Positions 2,081-46,600 of a stretch of DNA of 64,000 nucleotides are shown here, one piece after another; position 1 is the first letter of the stretch, and every line of letters begins with the position of its first letter. Source of the DNA: Cheilinus undulatus (taxonomy: Eukaryota; Chordata; Actinopteri; Labriformes; Labridae); the NCBI RefSeq assembly GCF_018320785.1, contig NC_054873.1, forward strand, positions 27,494,196-27,558,195. Reading direction: 5' to 3'. A program made the translations under genes and the position numbers. Below the pieces are notes generated by a model. The model was not told the DNA's origin. It saw nothing but the letters and a program-made list of their open reading frames with translations, and did not search any database.

Positions 2081-3604
2081 CCCCCCTATGAAAACGTATT
2101 TTTTTAGCGTATTTTTCCAAGTGCTGTTTACCAGAGCTAAGAGTTTTTAACACAGCTTTCAGACATCCTAGTTTCATTATTCAAAAAAGTTTTTCACAAA
2201 AATCAAAAACTACTAGGGTCAAAAGTATTAGTCCCCTTCAGAACTGACCTTTTTGTTGAGCCATAGCACAAATCACTGTTGTGCAATGATGTGCTGGACT
2301 TTGTAATGCACAAAGCTTGTAAAATCAAGTAAAAACTGAGGGTCATCTTCCAAATTACACACAGAATAAAACTTTCCGTCAGGGTTGTAGCTGTCACTGG
2401 AGAAAGCATCATGGCGAAAACAAAAGAAATCAGTTTAGACTTGAGCAGAAGAATTGTTGATGCTCAAAAGCAGAAGGATATACAAAGTTACCACATCGTT
2501 TCCGGGTGTCAAGATCTGGAGTGAGCAGTTTCACCAAGAAATTCAAAGAGAGCCACACAGTCCAGAACAAAGCCTGGCAGAGGTAGGTAGGGGAAGATTT
2601 CAAAGACTCCAGAAAGAAAACTCATGAGAAATGTGTCTAAAGACCCCAGAACAACAGCCAAGACACTAGTGAATGACTTAGCCAAGTCAGGAATTGTAGT
2701 CTCAAAGAAGACCATCACTAGAGCCCTGTACAGAAGTGGACTGAGAGGTTACAGATAAAGAAAAAGTCCACTTCTGCAGAAGAGACACCTTCAAGTCAGA
2801 CTGGAGTATGCTAAGGACAACCCGGAGAAAGATAATGCATACTGGAAGCATGTCCTTTGGTCAGATTAAACCAAACCAGAACTCTTTGGCCAGAGAGACA
2901 TTGCTTATGTTTGGACAAAGAAGTGAGAGGTGTGTAACCTAAAGAACACCGTCCCCACTGTGAAACATGGTGCTGGGAGTATTATGCTGTAGGGATGCTT
3001 CAGTGCATCTGGAACTGGGAATCTCGTAAAGGTGAAAGGTGTCCTGAAAAAGGATATGTGACGATTTTGAAAGAAAATCTCAAACAGTCAGCAGAAACAC
3101 TGGGTCTGGGTCATCGCTTTGTCTTCCAACACATCAATGACTCAAAACATACACGGCCCTTGGTGAAGAACCACTTACAGAAGACCAAAGTGAGCGTTAC
3201 TGACTGGCCTGCAGGAAGACCTGTCTTGAATCCCACTGAAAATCTGTGGGGTGAACTAAAAACCAAGGTCCATGTCTGAAGGTCAGTCTAATCTGGAGGG
3301 GTTTGAGAGATCGGTCAAAGAAGAACAAACTGGGATTCCTCAGGAGGCAAGCGCTGAAAACTACAACAAATGACTGTAGTCTGTTATCAAGAAAAAGGAG
3401 ACACAACTCGCTATTTTTATCAGGGGGGCTACTAATTAAGACCCTGGTAGTTTTTGGGATATAGTTTTGTTTCTGTGTGCGAAGTAAAATAATATAAGCA
3501 TCCAAAATAAAACAAGCATGTTTGGAAAAGCTGTGTTAAAATACCATGCTCTGCTTAACAGCACTTGAGGAATGATTTAAATAGTGTAATTTTCATATGG
3601 GGGC
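2081..3604 (+). mobile_element. Tc1/mariner transposon with long IR/DR-type inverted repeats
   Basis: A 1.52-kb element flanked by TA (2079-2080 and 3605-3606), the expected Tc1 target duplication. The left end begins CCCCCCTATGAAAACG and the right end is its imperfect inverse. The inverted repeats are about 150-170 bp long, with a second similar block at the inner boundary (near 2205-2232 and 3424-3455), the arrangement known as IR/DR. A broken transposase gene lies between them. The element sits in the intron between the probable tmem60 leader exon and its coding exon. The divergence between ends and the many stops indicate an old, inactive copy. Confidence 0.85.
2411..3279 (+). pseudogene. 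Degenerate Tc1-like transposase
   Basis: The reading starts at an ATG (2411) with the typical Tc1 transposase opening MAKTKEISLDLSRRIVD. It meets a stop within about 40 codons and continues in shifted frames. The C-terminal part is readable at 2995-3279. It includes FQHINDSKHT, which corresponds to the second catalytic Asp region, and NPTENLWGELK, which corresponds to the third acidic residue of the DDE/D triad. Intact family members are about 340 aa; this copy has several stops and frameshifts and cannot encode a working enzyme. Confidence 0.8.
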
Positions 3605-9600: not shown

Positions 9601-12600
9601 AGAGCTAGCTGTCTGACAGAGGGCTCCTTACCCTGAAGTCATCAAGGATACAGAAAAGAATGAAAGTTGGTTAGAATGAACATCATTCAATTAATGTACA
9701 ATCATATTATCTTAGGACAGACTTGTACCTGAACTGGATGGAAAATGGCCTGCAGCATAGAGAGGACATCACAGAAGAAGAAGTCCCAGGTCTCTGCCAG
9801 AGAGTCTAATAACTTCTGACCTGCATCAATTACACAGTAACAAACAATGATTAAAGCTTAATTCACTGGCACAGACCACAATAAAACATGTTCCTGTCTG
9901 TCTGAAACAAATAAATTCAAATCCTCTGCTGTCACATGGGATTAAGAGGACCTCTGTTTAAATGCACCAGACAAAAGAATACTTCTTAAAAATACGAAAA
10001 TGTGATATGTACAACATTATTGAAAGGAACTATCTGAGAAGGGATAATGATTTTCATAGACCTACTATAAGCTGTATAATATATTACTGTAACTGCATGG
10101 CTTCTTTTTGTTTTGTTTAAAATCATAGTGTGTTGTATCTATTGCACCTTATTGTTATTAAATCGTTTTGAATTATATTTAGTAAATTCTTAAATCTTAT
10201 TGTATGGTGTCTCTCTAATGCTCCATATCGTGTAGTATAGTATATCGTATCGTATCAGACTGTAAAATGTCATATGTGTTGTTTCATGTGGTTTTGTATG
10301 TGGTATTGTATGTCTTGTGCTTCATGTGTTTAATCATGTTCATACCTTCGTAGAACCTTATTTTGTCCCGAAGGATCACCATCCCTTTTGTCAGCAACTG
10401 GTTCTGTGAAAACAGCAAAACATAACACCAAACATGACTTCCTGAAACAACAACAAAACAGTCAAAAATAGGTCAAACTGAGTAATATAATCCAGACATA
10501 CTCTGATCCTACTTGTATGAAAGTCAATACCTGAAGGTACTCTGTGAAGAAGGATCCCAGCTCAGTCTTCAGGAGATGCCTGAGAGAACAAAAAAAAGTT
10601 AATAATAGCTAATTTTGATCTCAATTTTCTTCCTAGAAACTATGACCATTTTTTTCTTCTATGGACAGAAAAATCTAGAATAGTTACTTTGAATAAGAAA
10701 GAACCAAATGAGGCCCTAGAAGTCGATGACTGCTAAATCTCTGGCAAATAACCAAGTTGTTGGTTACTTGTTATTCCTGTTATTAGTTAACCATCATTTA
10801 ATAATTAACTAATGGTTAACCAGTCAGTATTCCTCAGTATTTCTAATTTGTCCCTTAGTTATTATGCTATTATTTCTTCAACATTAAATGACTGTTAATT
10901 TTAGTGGGTTGCCTGAGGGAGAAGACTGTGAATGAGTTTTTAACATATACTCAGTTTTTAGCTATCCTCATTTGTTCTTTCATCCACAAATTATGGGAAT
11001 ATCTGTCTACCAAAAAACGAGACAGACAAGCAACTAACAATTACTTTACCATTAGTTAATCCTAACTAACAATTAACTTGGTGTAATTTCCTCATTTGTT
11101 CCTTGCTAGAAGAGGTGAAAAGTAACTAATTATATTTACTCAAATCACTGTAACTGAGTAGTGTTTATAGGTACTTCTACATTTTTAAGTACATTTGAAA
11201 TCAGCACTTTTACTTCTATTTAAGTGCATTTTAATCAGAGTAACTGTGCTTTTACTTCAGTATGATACTCTTGTACTTTTTCAATCTCTGTTGACCACAC
11301 AGTTAACCATGCAGAGCACATGGATTTGCCCGTTTTCGTGTTTCTCACTGCCAAATCCATCTTGAAAAGTTCCCATCTGAACCATTTGGGCCCAGTTAGA
11401 CAGTGACAGGACCAATCAGCGACTAGGAGCAGTACTTTGAGCGTGGCAGAGTCATGAGGTAGGCAAGCAGTGAGAAGAGGCCAGTGCAAGTATGGCGGAA
11501 GACATTAGCATGAATGCTGCTAAAGCGTAAGTTTTATCAGAACTTGCAACATTTCTTTGTTAAAAGAAGAACAAAGAACAGCATTGAGTTGTTTTCTTTT
11601 CAAAAACGACAAAAGTTGTGTACTGACATGTCTACAGTCGCCAGGGTTCGCATTATGCAGCTCTCTATGGAGTTCATCCATCGGTAGCAGTGCACCTCGG
11701 TTTGGGGCTACACGTTGTGTTTTGTTTCTCTCGTTGGCCCGTAAACATGTGACAGACAGAATGTTCATCCAATCACCCTCTGAGGAATTTTTCAGAGGCT
11801 CTGCTCCTTCCCAAATGCCGTCTATGGAAGGTTTACCAGATGGATGTGTGAAACAAATCCATCTGGTGTGTCAGGTTACCACACAGTAGGACATAGAAAA
11901 AATATGATTCCACAGCACATCTAAAAACTGCTGTTGTACACAGCAAAAATTTGAGTGTTCCCATTGGGGTGTTCCCATCATGCCCTTGGGCATAGTGTCT
12001 TATCCTGCTGTTTTTGGATGTTTCCTGTTGTACAGTGATCCCAGCTGCAGTTCCTTTGGTCATGTTTATAGTGGTTTGTTGTTGTTTTTGTTGTTAGACA
12101 CATTGGCACCACTGGTGAAGTTATCCACCGAGTTAGAATTTTCACCGGTGACTACAGGTTTTCCTAAATTACTTAAAGTATTCTTCATCAGAATACATTG
12201 CACCTCTATGAGGTTGATTCTCTGCCCACCTTGCCACAGATCAAGACTGCAGTAACTTTCTGCAGAGTGTCAAGCTCCGCCTTACTGTCAAATATTTAAC
12301 ACCTTAAAAAGTGCCATTCAATTATATGTAGTGTGGAGCAATATAGACACTTAAAGCGGTTATTAATGAGTTTTAAAAACTGATTTGTTTTTATTGTGTT
12401 ATTGAGGTGTGACTTTACCTGAAAATCCTGGTTTGAGATCCATTCTGTTGTTCTTGCCAATAAGGAAAGAGCAGATCAGGCAGTAGTTGTAGTATTTTTT
12501 TTAATTGACTAATGGTGAGGACAGAGATATTTCCTCTCTAATCCTCAGTTCTACCCCAATGACAATGCCATTTTTTCAACTTAATTAACAAGCAGCCTGT

Positions 12601-40600: not shown

Positions 40601-43600
40601 AACATAACACAGGGTAAGAGAGGGTAGCTTAAAAAAGAAAAAGAAAGGCAAACTAAGGAAGATACAACAGAAGAGAGAGGGAAATATTGGGACTGGGAAC
40701 ACTCAGCTGCCTCCAACACAGCTGCTTGAAGTAGAGATCAAATGCCTGTAAAATTCAACTTTACACCCTCTAAAAGTTATGTTTCTGCTGACCATAGATG
40801 TTTTTTGTTCACATGTATTGCTCCGCTGCAGAGGTAAATTCAGGGGTGCGTTCAGTACATCCGCAGGTAATCATTAGCACCTTTTTGTGAGGTGCAACGG
40901 TTTTTACACTTCTCGCATGAGATTGATGAAACAAAAGCTCCTTGACTGGTGTGAAGTTAGTCTTTAAATGCACACAGACTTGCATTACAATGTTTACCTG
41001 TGGAGGCACTGCTGGAACAGGTTGGCTGCTTGGGGGTACTGGACCAACTTCAGATGGGACACCTTGCATCTGGGGTTGAACCTTGTGTAGCAAAAAGAGG
41101 AAAAATGCACATGAAGTGTAAATTACACTAAAGTGAACGCATGCTGGCTACCATTTCCTCTGATCAAAAAAGACTGGCATTTAGGTGTTGAAAGCAGCAA
41201 GGGACATGCAGCATCTCAAACTGAGAGGGAAACACAAATACAAATAAAGGCATTCTGTATGTAAATGTTTCCAAGGAGCACATATCATAGACGAGCGTCA
41301 CAACAGACACCTATGTCATATGTTTCTTAAAATAGTACCAAACGATTAACAATACAACCATAGCTTACAAAATGAGCTCCCAGTTGTTGTTTTGTTGTTT
41401 CTCTTGTCCCCTCTCTGCATCTCCATCTTCTCTCTTCCTGCTTCTCCCGACCCCTTACCCCCCTACCTTTCTCCAACCCCAGTGCAACTTTGGCAGACGG
41501 CTGTCAACATTATCCTGGTTCTGCCAAAGGTTCCTAGAGTACAGTCTAGACCTGTCCTCTTTGTAGAGTGGCTTGAGAACATCATACAAAACAAGACTAG
41601 GGACCGGGACTCATATCTATTGCATGAATGTATTTGACATTCTTCAGGGAAAGCTCCCATAGAAAATGTCTGAGAAGGGCAGGACTTGTCAGAAAATCTT
41701 CAGTGGTGATCAGAGGAACGTTCTGTCACATTCCTGAGGGGTCAATCAGAGCAGAACTCAGAGACCGAGCACTGAGCAGCATCATCAGAAAATGACTTAC
41801 CAACAACTGCTGCTGCGGCTGCATTTGGTCATTCTGTGATGGCGGGCAAGACACCTGGGGCTGAAGGTGTTGAATGGATGAGGGGGTGAATGGCATTCCA
41901 GCTTTAGGAGGCAGGGCTTCATGGAGGACAGAGGAAGCAGGTGGTCTGTCTCCTATGTGACCGGCTGTAAGATAAGGATATGATGTTAAATTCAAGAAAA
42001 TTGAAGTATTTAATCAACATTAGACAGTGTGTGATCAAATATAAAGTCATCTAATCCACACCTCCTCCAGTGAGCTGTAATTGTTGATGTTGGTCAGTCT
42101 CTGGCTCCTCTGGCTCTGGCTGGATAGGGGCCACATTCTGACTGTGGACTGGAGCTGGGACTTGCCCAACTGACTGGGGGACATAAGGGCCCCCCTGTGG
42201 AACACCAGCTTGTTGGGTTGATTGAGGAGTGTTGTAGTTGGAGGTCTGAAGGCTCTGCTGAGAAGCCAGCTGAGCAGAGATCTGTGTGCTGTGTTGGGTT
42301 GGCTGTGGGGGGACATAGGAAGCAGCCTGCGACATGGACTGGGGCTGGGGCACCTCTGTGTTTGGCAGCTGGCTTGGTAGCTGTGAAGGTGTTGACTGAC
42401 TCTGTTCTTCCTCCAGCCTTCTCTTCTCCTGGTCTTCTCTCACCTGCAAGACAGCCATTCATAGTCAGACAATACATTAATATTCTTCCACAAAGCACTG
42501 ACTGACAACATCCAGACTTCACAGCAAGGTACACAAATCCAACTATGAAGATAACTTCAGCAAAGAGGCAACTTCAATATGTCAGTGGACACACCTGCTG
42601 TCGCTGTGCTCTCTTGCGACTGATGAGAGACACCCTGTCCTTAATGGCCTTTGCAATGGTCTTGTGGTCACCTTCGCACACATACCCAGACTCAACCTAG
42701 AGCATAAAAACATTTGATATGACTGGAAATCGAGCAGTGAAACTCATTAAACGGGCGTAACAAAGTTTTCATTGTGAGGGAACGATCACTGAACCACAAA
42801 AGTTAGATTTACCATCTCCTGAGCCACATCTTCAGGAACATCTTTGTTGAGGTCAAAAGAAAACTCAATAGCTTCGTTGTCTTTGTATTTCCCCTTAAGT
42901 TTCTTTCCATCCTCAATTCTCAGCCACAGCTTGATGTTTTCCATCTCGCCATCATCTTCTTCTGCCAACTCTACACGCACCCCTGTGTCCTCCTGGAAGA
43001 AGGCATGGTTCAAAAGGTCCTTAATTGAGTACCTAAATGGAGAAAAACAAGCACTGATTAAATACATGATTATCTCGTCTATGTTAAGCCTGATAAATAG
43101 ACATTTAGGCCTCGTTTACATGACAACGTTTTGCTTCGTTTCCCATTTTCGTTTCCAAACAGTTCCACGTTTACACAGCAATGTTTTGAAAACAATCTCC
43201 ATCTGCACGAGAACGCAGGAAACAGAAAAACGCTGTAGTAAGGTGATTTACTGCACAATAAAACTGTCTCTACAACAAGAACCGTGTTTTTCATGTGTTT
43301 TTGAGAATATGCAACATTTTTATCATACACGTGTGCATGAGTGTAATTCATTACTAAATCCTCCTCCTCATCACAATCGTAGCGCAGCAGCAAAATTTTA
43401 CGGCACATATAAACACAAAAATGCATTGCAAGACCAGTCTTATTATAACGAAATCCTGTTAAGACTGTTTGATTCTCCAGGGACAAATTTTTCTTCTAAA
43501 GCCTTTGATTTCTCGTGGATTTTCTCCGAAAGTGCAGCGCTTCCTGCTTCAAGAGTAGCAAAAGAATGGTAGCCTTTTCAGAACAATATTTCTACTTCCC

Positions 43601-46600
43601 CTTTTTCAATTTTATCTGCTTCTTGGAAGTGATTAACTATCTTTTTTAACCTTAACATGGAAGCTTTAATCCTGTCTCCTCCATCAGCTGCGCATATGTG
43701 CCGGTGGAGGAGGAGACAGGGGAGTCTACAGGCTGAAGTTAGTAATTAAAACTTAAAGAAAAAAAGATAAAGTCTAAATCATTTCCAAGAAGAAGGAAAA
43801 TAGAAATATCATTCTGAAAAAAAAGGCTCCAGCTGCGCTCATGTGCAGCGGTGCGATTTATGAGAAAATCCACGAGAAGTTAAAGGCTGTAGGAGCTGAA
43901 TTTGTCCGTGAGGAATTAATTATTCTCAGCGTATATCTTCGTTATTAACAAGACTGATCTAGCAAAGCATTTTTTGTGTTAATATGAGCCGTGAAATTTT
44001 TCTGCCTCACTACGATGATGATGACGGTGACTATCAAGATGATCGATAAAAAAGGTAATCATTTCCAAAATTGATAGCATGACTTTATCTAAAATAACTG
44101 GCACTGATAGCCCTCTAAACAAGAATAATGCGTCCACTTTTCTAAATCCAGCTGTCTGTGACATGACAAGCAGTAAACAACATCAGACGGCTCGGCTTGA
44201 GCTGCCACAGCTGGGTTCCGAGTGCTGCAACACTCGTGCTTGACAGCTGATTGCAGCCGTAGTGCGCATGTGCGTTTTCAGGAAGTGTCTTTTTCCCTGT
44301 TTACATGGAGATGGAGACGGGGGCGTTTTGGAAAAATTCCACTCTGGAGCCCGTTTCCAGAAAGTTTCATTTTCAGGCACCAAAACGTCGTTGCCATGTA
44401 AACGGACAGCCAAAACGCTACAAAACGTTTGAGTTTTCACTCGAAAATGTCGTCGTATAAACGGCGCCTTAAGTTTAACACCTTTCGTCCTTGTTCTGGC
44501 GAATGCATCCCTCGATGATCTCCTTCACTTCAGGAATGGCCACCTTGTCAAAGCTGCCTGGCTTCACACCCTAAATGAAACACAGAAAACTCAATGAGAA
44601 CGGTTCTTCTTCTCATCAACCTTTCTGTTTCTAAGTGAAACACTGCCTCCCAGACCATCCTTTTAATGAGAACAAATTTTTAAAGGCCTAAAATAACACC
44701 AGTTTTTAATTCTCTTCTAAAGCTGGTCTAAAAAAGCTACGTTACAGTATGACAATGAAAGAAATGTAACTCTCCAAACAAAGGGTAAATATGAGAAGGG
44801 GCCATGCTTTGCATTTGGTGATATTAAAAATGACAAATGTAAAGTGATGGAAAAGGAGTGGAGAAATCACTAAAAGATGGCTCAAGAGAGGGACTGCATT
44901 AAGTCAGCAGCAGGAAACTGCATGAGGAAAATGGAAGCTGAACAGCTGAGCAGCATGTCAGAGTAGAAAAAAACAACAGCCAATATCCCAAAGGCATAAT
45001 ACTGTAAAACCTGAGCATGTGACACTACCTAAATGTAGACTCAACCCCACAATAGCACTCTATTTCTTCACTGAGTCAACTGTGAGTGGTGCTCTGCAGT
45101 ATGAGCTATTGTGGATTATAAAGAGAGGTGAGAAGGCAATACTTAGAGGGGTAAACAGAAAAATCTAGCTTGAAATCACGTGGCAAGGACTTCAGTATTT
45201 GTACTTTACAGTTAATAATAAACTTAGGATAATGGTAAAGATTTCAAGGGACACTGTGTAGATAACAGTCTAAGAACAGGTTCAACCTCTTTATCTACAG
45301 GGCTTGTAATTGCAGAGTATGAGTCATATCAGTGGCTATGCATTTCAAAAGTAAGCCAGCATGAGCTGCATGAGTAAGACTATAAATATGTCCTTTCTTT
45401 GACAGTTAGTGCCCTTCTGGCGTCATCACAAGACTTAACCATTAGCTGTTAGGAAAATAGCAGGACTGTGCCTGTTCAGCTTTTATAACTTATCTATGCC
45501 TCAGGGCTACAGGCTCAGAAAACCTACAGCATTTCTTGCAACATAAAGCAACAAAGTGTGAAAAAGTGACTATGGCTTGACTGTGGTAAGTATTTTTCTT
45601 TTTAAAAAATTTTAATAGGAAGGTAGGGGAGGGAGATGCATTAATACACAATTGATGCAAGACAAGAGTAGAGGACAGACATGTAATAGAATGTAAAGTT
45701 GATTAAAAAAGAGGTGTCAGCTGGGGAATAAAACCACTCCAGAATGGGACACAAGCCTTCTTGGCACATTGGAAGATGTGAAGGCAGGGCAGTGGGGTGA
45801 AATGAAGGGCTGAAAAGTAGACTTACGCTGGTAACTCTGCGGTAGATCTGTGCAGCATTCTGGCACTCTGAGTAAGGGTACTCTGAGGTGGCCATCTCCA
45901 GCATGCACATTCCAAAGGCATACACATCCACTGACTCGTCGTACTTCTCCTCATACATCTCAGGCGCCATGAACTCAGGGGTACCTTAAATCAAAACAAC
46001 TATTCAGAACTCTCGAACCCCCTTACTGATTGTGTGGGCTTCTCACAACCCACAGTCCCTCTGCTCCCCTAACCCGTGAGGGGTTGAGGAAGAGGAGGAG
46101 GAGAAGAGAGACCAGCCTGTTCGTGTCCTGCAGTAGAACCTGTGAGGTGAGAGTTGAGGAGAGAGAAAAAGAAAAGGGGAAGGAAAGCAAAAAGAGACAG
46201 AAAACAAAAAAAGGAGGGAGAAGCTGGGCTCAATTAGACTGTAGAGAAGAGAGCACATGTTTGTCTGTGTAAGACCCTCATATGTGAAATACATGACTGA
46301 GCCCATGTGCAGAACACACTTGTTGGCCAATATCTGTATTTTGGGGAAAATATTCTGAATAAGGAACTTGAGAAAAATTCCTAGACCAGTTTGAACAAAA
46401 GGATGCCAATGATCTGTGCTAGAGTAACATGACTAGCTATGGAAACATTTGTCCAGACCTTAAAACCACAGTACACTTTCTGTCATTGTACACTCACCTT
46501 GAGAAGTCTTACTTACCGTCTTCTCTTGACCTGAAGGGGGTAAACTGTTACAATCAAGGCTGAGAGGGTCCCATAGCTAGTTACTCTCTCTCTCTCTGCG

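Follow-up and report, generated by a model that had tools for sequence, protein, structure and literature searches.

Is an intron that consists almost wholly of a sequence folding back on itself shaped by a role in the transcript, or is it the landing place of a transposon? The question is raised by the gene wnk1 of the labrid fish Cheilinus undulatus, part of which lies in the 64,000-nucleotide (nt) stretch of contig NC_054873.1 analysed here (assembly GCF_018320785.1, positions 27,494,196 to 27,558,195 of the forward strand). This stretch is called the window, and positions are counted from its first letter. The wnk1 element is very probably an ordinary insertion of a common, non-autonomous cut-and-paste transposon of the PHIS (PIF/Harbinger-related) type, most like the group NuwaII.

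The two exons that border the intron, 44482-44570 and 42813-43032, code for the end of the kinase domain and for PF2 of a WNK kinase once they are joined in frame on the minus strand, and the best PDB match of the second exon is WNK1 (E 5e-29). An earlier note on this DNA, the original prediction, had given coordinates and sizes for exons, intron and element, all of which proved correct, including the TTA flanks and the distances to the splice sites. Between the TTA-flanked element and the splice sites lie 10 nt on the donor side and 72 nt on the acceptor side. The host features and the element are as follows.

44482-44570, minus strand: wnk1 exon with the end of the kinase domain, donor side (in-frame join; exons of paralogues)
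43033-44481, minus strand: wnk1 intron of 1449 nt, GT...AG, phase 2 (read from the sequence)
42813-43032, minus strand: wnk1 PF2 exon, acceptor side (in-frame join; PDB match)
43108-44468, plus strand: probable non-autonomous foldback DNA transposon copy of 1361 bp, with 93.3% identity to the family consensus of 1377 bp (BLAST, sibling alignment)
43105-43107, no strand: target-site duplication TTA, low side (sequence, sibling alignment)
44469-44471, no strand: target-site duplication TTA, high side (sequence, sibling alignment)

The evidence for a transposon comes in the first place from sibling copies, which the original prediction had expected elsewhere in the genome. When the 1.17-Gb assembly (46 contigs) was searched with the element, 40 matches were scored of the 1563 candidates from a loose first look, and 39 siblings were taken with their flanks; these are the copies most like the wnk1 copy and not a random sample. 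Most of them (31 of 39) match the element in a single piece of more than 1,100 bp, and the long pieces on the sense strand are 78-91% identical. The wnk1 copy was aligned with 34 siblings, with L041, L043, L045, L046 and L047 omitted, and the majority of these 35 copies gave the 1377-bp consensus; one further row-based analysis took in 32 of the 35 rows. Conservation per 60 alignment columns is 0.78-0.96 within the element and 0.44-0.51 outside it. The consensus ends, GGCCTTGTTTATACGACAACGTTTT and GGCCCTGTTTACACGACAACGTTTT, start with GGCC and are identical to each other at 23 of 25 positions, compared with 19 of 25 in the wnk1 copy. Copies are far more numerous than those collected: the terminal 25-mer is found at 495 places in the genome with up to 2 mismatches (reversed control 0), and with up to 3 mismatches internal 28-mers of the two arms are found at 165 places (right arm, control 0) and 124 (left arm, control 1). 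The terminal pattern gave 0 matches in a collection of viral contigs and 0 in one of genome contigs. No description of the family was found in the literature searched, including a search for the printed end sequences; Repbase and Dfam were outside that search. Within the element, the terminal motif is repeated a short distance inside each end.

43108-43132, plus strand: left terminal inverted repeat, 25 bp (BLAST, consensus; identities counted by eye)
44444-44468, minus strand: right terminal inverted repeat, 25 bp (BLAST, consensus)
43168-43183, plus strand: left subterminal copy of the terminal motif, 2 mismatches (motif search)
44389-44404, minus strand: right subterminal copy of the terminal motif, 0 mismatches (motif search)

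The siblings also bear on the idea that no transposon is involved and that the arms stem from a local inverted duplication within the intron. Such an origin would suit the observation that only the inner 657 bp are continuously palindromic, but the same palindrome with the same ends recurs at dispersed loci; because these sibling copies exist, in-place duplication is refuted and keeps a negligible probability.

The target sites point in the same direction as the siblings. An exact 3-bp duplication flanks 13 of the 35 aligned copies, and in all 13 it has the form TNA (TTA 4, TAA 4, TGA 4, TCA 1). For one sibling, L010, a search with the joined flanks (1972 candidates, of which 40 were scored) gave at least 38 further places that belong to a different dispersed repeat, and all eight of the places examined are gap-free at the junction and carry a single TTA there, although some are gapped elsewhere. 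An insertion with duplication of TTA, as the original prediction had proposed, is thus supported by the 39 siblings, the TNA duplications and the empty sites of L010. The joined flanks of the wnk1 copy and of nine siblings gave no junction-spanning match in the DNA gathered in the analysis.

By this reading, a transposase encoded elsewhere would have recognised the inverted ends of the element and put it into a TTA of a short wnk1 intron, so that this TTA was doubled; for the sibling, insertion exactly at a single TTA is seen, and the wnk1 event would have followed the same course. The mirror-image arms were probably imperfect and unequal already in the progenitor, as the consensus indicates, and to judge from the mutation counts they would have decayed as neutral sequence since. 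The intron is presumably spliced out like any ordinary longer intron, and the RNA hairpin would be a by-product, which may serve as a substrate of ADAR and is under no visible selection. The analysis defines a family of non-autonomous, mirror-image transposons that target TNA, and for one copy of which exact empty sites were seen. A striking foldback intron can then be read as a neutral insertion, with little consequence beyond annotation.

As for the host intron, removal of the element and one TTA leaves 85 nt, with GT at the start and, at the other end, a tract rich in pyrimidines followed by AG. An intron in the same codon is found in six wnk paralogues of the same genome (591, 118, 2857, 647, 238 and 462 nt); none of these introns is matched by the family consensus at E 0.1. 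Because the six paralogues share its position, the wnk1 intron seems to be old. Its length before the insertion was probably short, about 85 nt, and the paralogue introns do not give the ancestral length. One wnk paralogue, L092 on contig C23, differs in its PF2 exon, which is split by 158 nt (388-231, minus strand) and which is unbroken in the other six wnk loci examined. This segment can be read as an intron of the GC-AG type, each end of which carries AGGCAAA, and it looks like an intron gain.

The element itself has apparently no coding capacity, nor has the family, as is expected of a miniature inverted-repeat transposable element (MITE) or other non-autonomous element. The Rfam scan of the window gave 0 matches at gathering scores. 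Pfam, at E 0.01, gave 0 families in eight of the 20 stop-to-stop frames of at least 40 amino acids that overlap the intron; the scanned frames have 62 to 249 amino acids, and a 109-residue frame of the wnk1 exon, the shorter frames and one other frame of 62 amino acids were left out.

How palindromic the element is can be read from its arms. The original prediction had described it as inversely similar to itself from the tips to a 26-nt loop. The loop is present, and the inner part (E 3e-75) is indeed continuous, while the outer arms turned out to be unequal in length (260 and 444 bp) and similar in patches.

43108-43367, plus strand: outer left arm, 260 bp, with patchy similarity to the right outer arm (BLAST, arm alignment)
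43368-44024, no strand: continuous inner palindrome, 657 bp, 68% identical over 682 alignment columns (self BLAST)
43683-43708, no strand: apical loop of 26 nt between the innermost 12-bp arms (read from the sequence; fold)
44025-44468, minus strand: outer right arm, 444 bp, exceeding the left by 184 bp (BLAST, arm alignment)

When the element was compared with the window by BLAST, the only match besides itself was one inverted block, 43368-44024. End-to-end alignment of the whole arms (588 and 773 bp) yields 439 identical and 103 differing positions (81.1% identity ungapped); it scores 156, whereas 200 shuffles reach 29.8 ± 7.2, at most 56. The outer arms taken by themselves have a global score (19.4) above that of all 500 shuffles (maximum 14.2) and a local score (27) within the range of the shuffles (mean 17.4, maximum 32).

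The predicted RNA fold of the whole intron has a free energy of -498 kcal/mol, compared with -361 ± 9.9 in 40 shuffles (z -13.8), and positions 43300-44250 alone reach z -18.3 (20 shuffles). The hairpin holds up as a prediction, though a ragged and lopsided one. With 218 of the 500 predicted pairs spanning more than 300 nt, and a longest uninterrupted helix of 25 bp, it is not the continuous duplex of some 600 bp that had been envisaged. Nor is there anything specific in the suggestion that the hairpin draws the splice sites, and with them the two exons, together, which was rejected: the graph distance between the intron ends in the predicted fold is 28, and 37 of the 40 shuffled introns have closer ends (range 2 to 35). 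Predicted nearness of intron ends is no argument alone, because most shuffled introns do better.

The predicted stability of this fold is one point in favour of another explanation, in which the hairpin has been co-opted in the wnk1 transcript, where it would tune the splicing of the kinase and PF2 exons, be edited by ADAR or be cut to small RNAs acting in trans. Repeats, DNA transposons included, are named as editing targets across metazoans in one source (PMC9989829), and both the z-scores and the 25-bp helix speak for a strong structure. Co-option also gains from two features of the copies. Mutations are slightly rarer at paired than at unpaired sites (4.4% compared with 5.6%). Only one of the 35 copies is closer to the consensus than the wnk1 copy (5.2%, median 6.6%), although resemblance to the wnk1 copy was the basis on which the siblings had been chosen.

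If the pairing were kept by selection, its trace should be found in the mutations. The arms of the consensus are themselves 85.5% identical ungapped, with 315 gap columns, and for this reason most of the imperfection is attributed to inheritance with the element; the ungapped identity is 78-84% in the eight siblings measured, a range that includes the wnk1 copy. Were an RNA duplex selected for on one strand, G-U mismatches should outnumber A-C mismatches, yet the transcript strand of the wnk1 copy has 22 of each (11 and 14 in the inner part), so that no selection for pairing is visible. The single mutations at paired sites in 29 copies fall into 268 G-U, 251 A-C and 461 others; CpG sites and six divergent or badly aligned rows (L035, L037, L038, L039, L040 and L042) were left out of these counts. 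Both partners have changed in 31 cells, compared with 24.8 expected, and 14 of these pair again; by our estimate, independent transitions would give about as many. The lower rate at paired sites and the excess of double changes could be alignment effects of conserved blocks. The expectation that the arms pair better than neutral sequence was thus not borne out, with G-U and A-C equal and double changes near chance.

There is no clear sign in the sequence of a maintained RNA role for the wnk1 hairpin, and the effects on splicing, editing and small RNAs that the original prediction had raised find no support there. Together with the 37 of 40 shuffled introns whose ends lie nearer, these counts leave co-option of the hairpin a very low probability. 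The same very slight chance is given to the more specific proposal that in each wnk1 pre-mRNA the foldback forms a double-stranded RNA within the molecule, and that editing or retention alters how often the kinase end and PF2 are joined in this species.

The profile DDE_Tnp_4, which stands for a transposase, has at least 152 matches in the genome (150 scored of 409 candidates). An autonomous partner adjoining a DDE_Tnp_4 gene was looked for near the 30 best hits and among 100 of the 495 termini, and none was found; the sole match to the consensus near the 30 best hits has 47 bp (L087, E 0.022). Because no transposase was found, membership of NuwaII is not proven.

Several observations weigh against a neutral insertion of a NuwaII-like element. 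No exact duplication is seen in 22 of the 35 aligned copies, some of which have a broken or replaced end; when shifted ends are allowed, a duplication appears in 16 of 30 rows, three of them not TNA. No empty site of the wnk1 copy itself was seen in the DNA gathered. As for the partner, the surroundings of the 30 best DDE_Tnp_4 hits, out to about 1.5 kb, hold a single terminus-like match (4 mismatches, L084), and among the matches listed (150 hits and 100 of the 495 termini) no terminus lies within 33 kb of a hit. The superfamily call is based only on target duplications and ends. To these are added the closeness of the wnk1 copy to the consensus, the slight excess of double changes and the lower mutation rate at paired sites.

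The ends of the family are also found on other elements, of which five, L098-L102, were collected (546 to 1927 bp). L099 is a variant of the wnk1-element family and L102 is related to it; these two share the ends and much of the arms, and their inner segments differ, as if internal blocks had been exchanged. L100 and L101 have the ends of the family but no long arms were seen in them. L098 (contig C1, 2677150-2679220) has the ends and open frames of 239, 109 and 103 residues that look coding, one of which may resemble a protein of the long interspersed nuclear element (LINE) type. On contig C8, at about 43.167-43.204 Mb, five copies of the internal sequence of the element stand about 9.2 kb apart, as if one copy had become part of a tandemly repeated 9.2-kb unit.

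Other repeats were met in the window and in the flanks of siblings. Positions 11304-11857 belong to another dispersed repeat that matches the flanks of L028 (84% over 179) and L038 (75% over 299), and at 11304-11328 and 11854-11878 there is an inverted pair of 25 nt with 76% complementarity. A 40-nt inverted pair at 2204-2243 and 3417-3456, 78% complementary and 1173 nt apart, possibly represents the ends of another element.

Among known systems, the wnk1 family resembles foldback elements and MITEs in its inverted arms, its many copies and the absence of any coding capacity found, and it would likewise be mobilised in trans. Classic foldback elements have near-perfect arms; the arms of this family are diverged and unequal, and it is longer than typical MITEs. 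With the non-autonomous elements of PIF/Harbinger, it shares an AT-rich 3-bp duplication, TTA at the wnk1 copy, and short inverted ends. According to the published description, PIF/Harbinger has TWA duplications, NuwaI has CWG, and NuwaII has TNA preceded by C and followed by G; the ends of NuwaII mostly begin with GG and are 13-46 bp long, and three bony fishes are among the hosts listed for this group (PMC4482050). That the family is strictly PIF/Harbinger and not NuwaII is rather unlikely: TTA at the wnk1 copy and TTA or TAA in eight of the 13 exact duplications would agree with it, but TGA or TCA in the other five falls outside TWA and fits the TNA described for NuwaII (PMC4482050). The family differs from NuwaII in its length of 1.36 kb and its long, imperfect mirror-image arms, and no transposase or Myb/SANT gene was seen, the latter not having been searched for. 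The context of the target is mixed: the C before the duplication that is described for NuwaII (PMC4482050) is found in seven of the 13 exact copies (T in six) and the G after it in eight (A in five), and the wnk1 copy has T and A. In two other features the family agrees with NuwaII: all 13 exact duplications are TNA, and the ends start with GG and, at 25 bp, lie inside the range of 13-46 bp (PMC4482050). On the sequence evidence, the NuwaII group of PHIS appears to be the best fit for the family.

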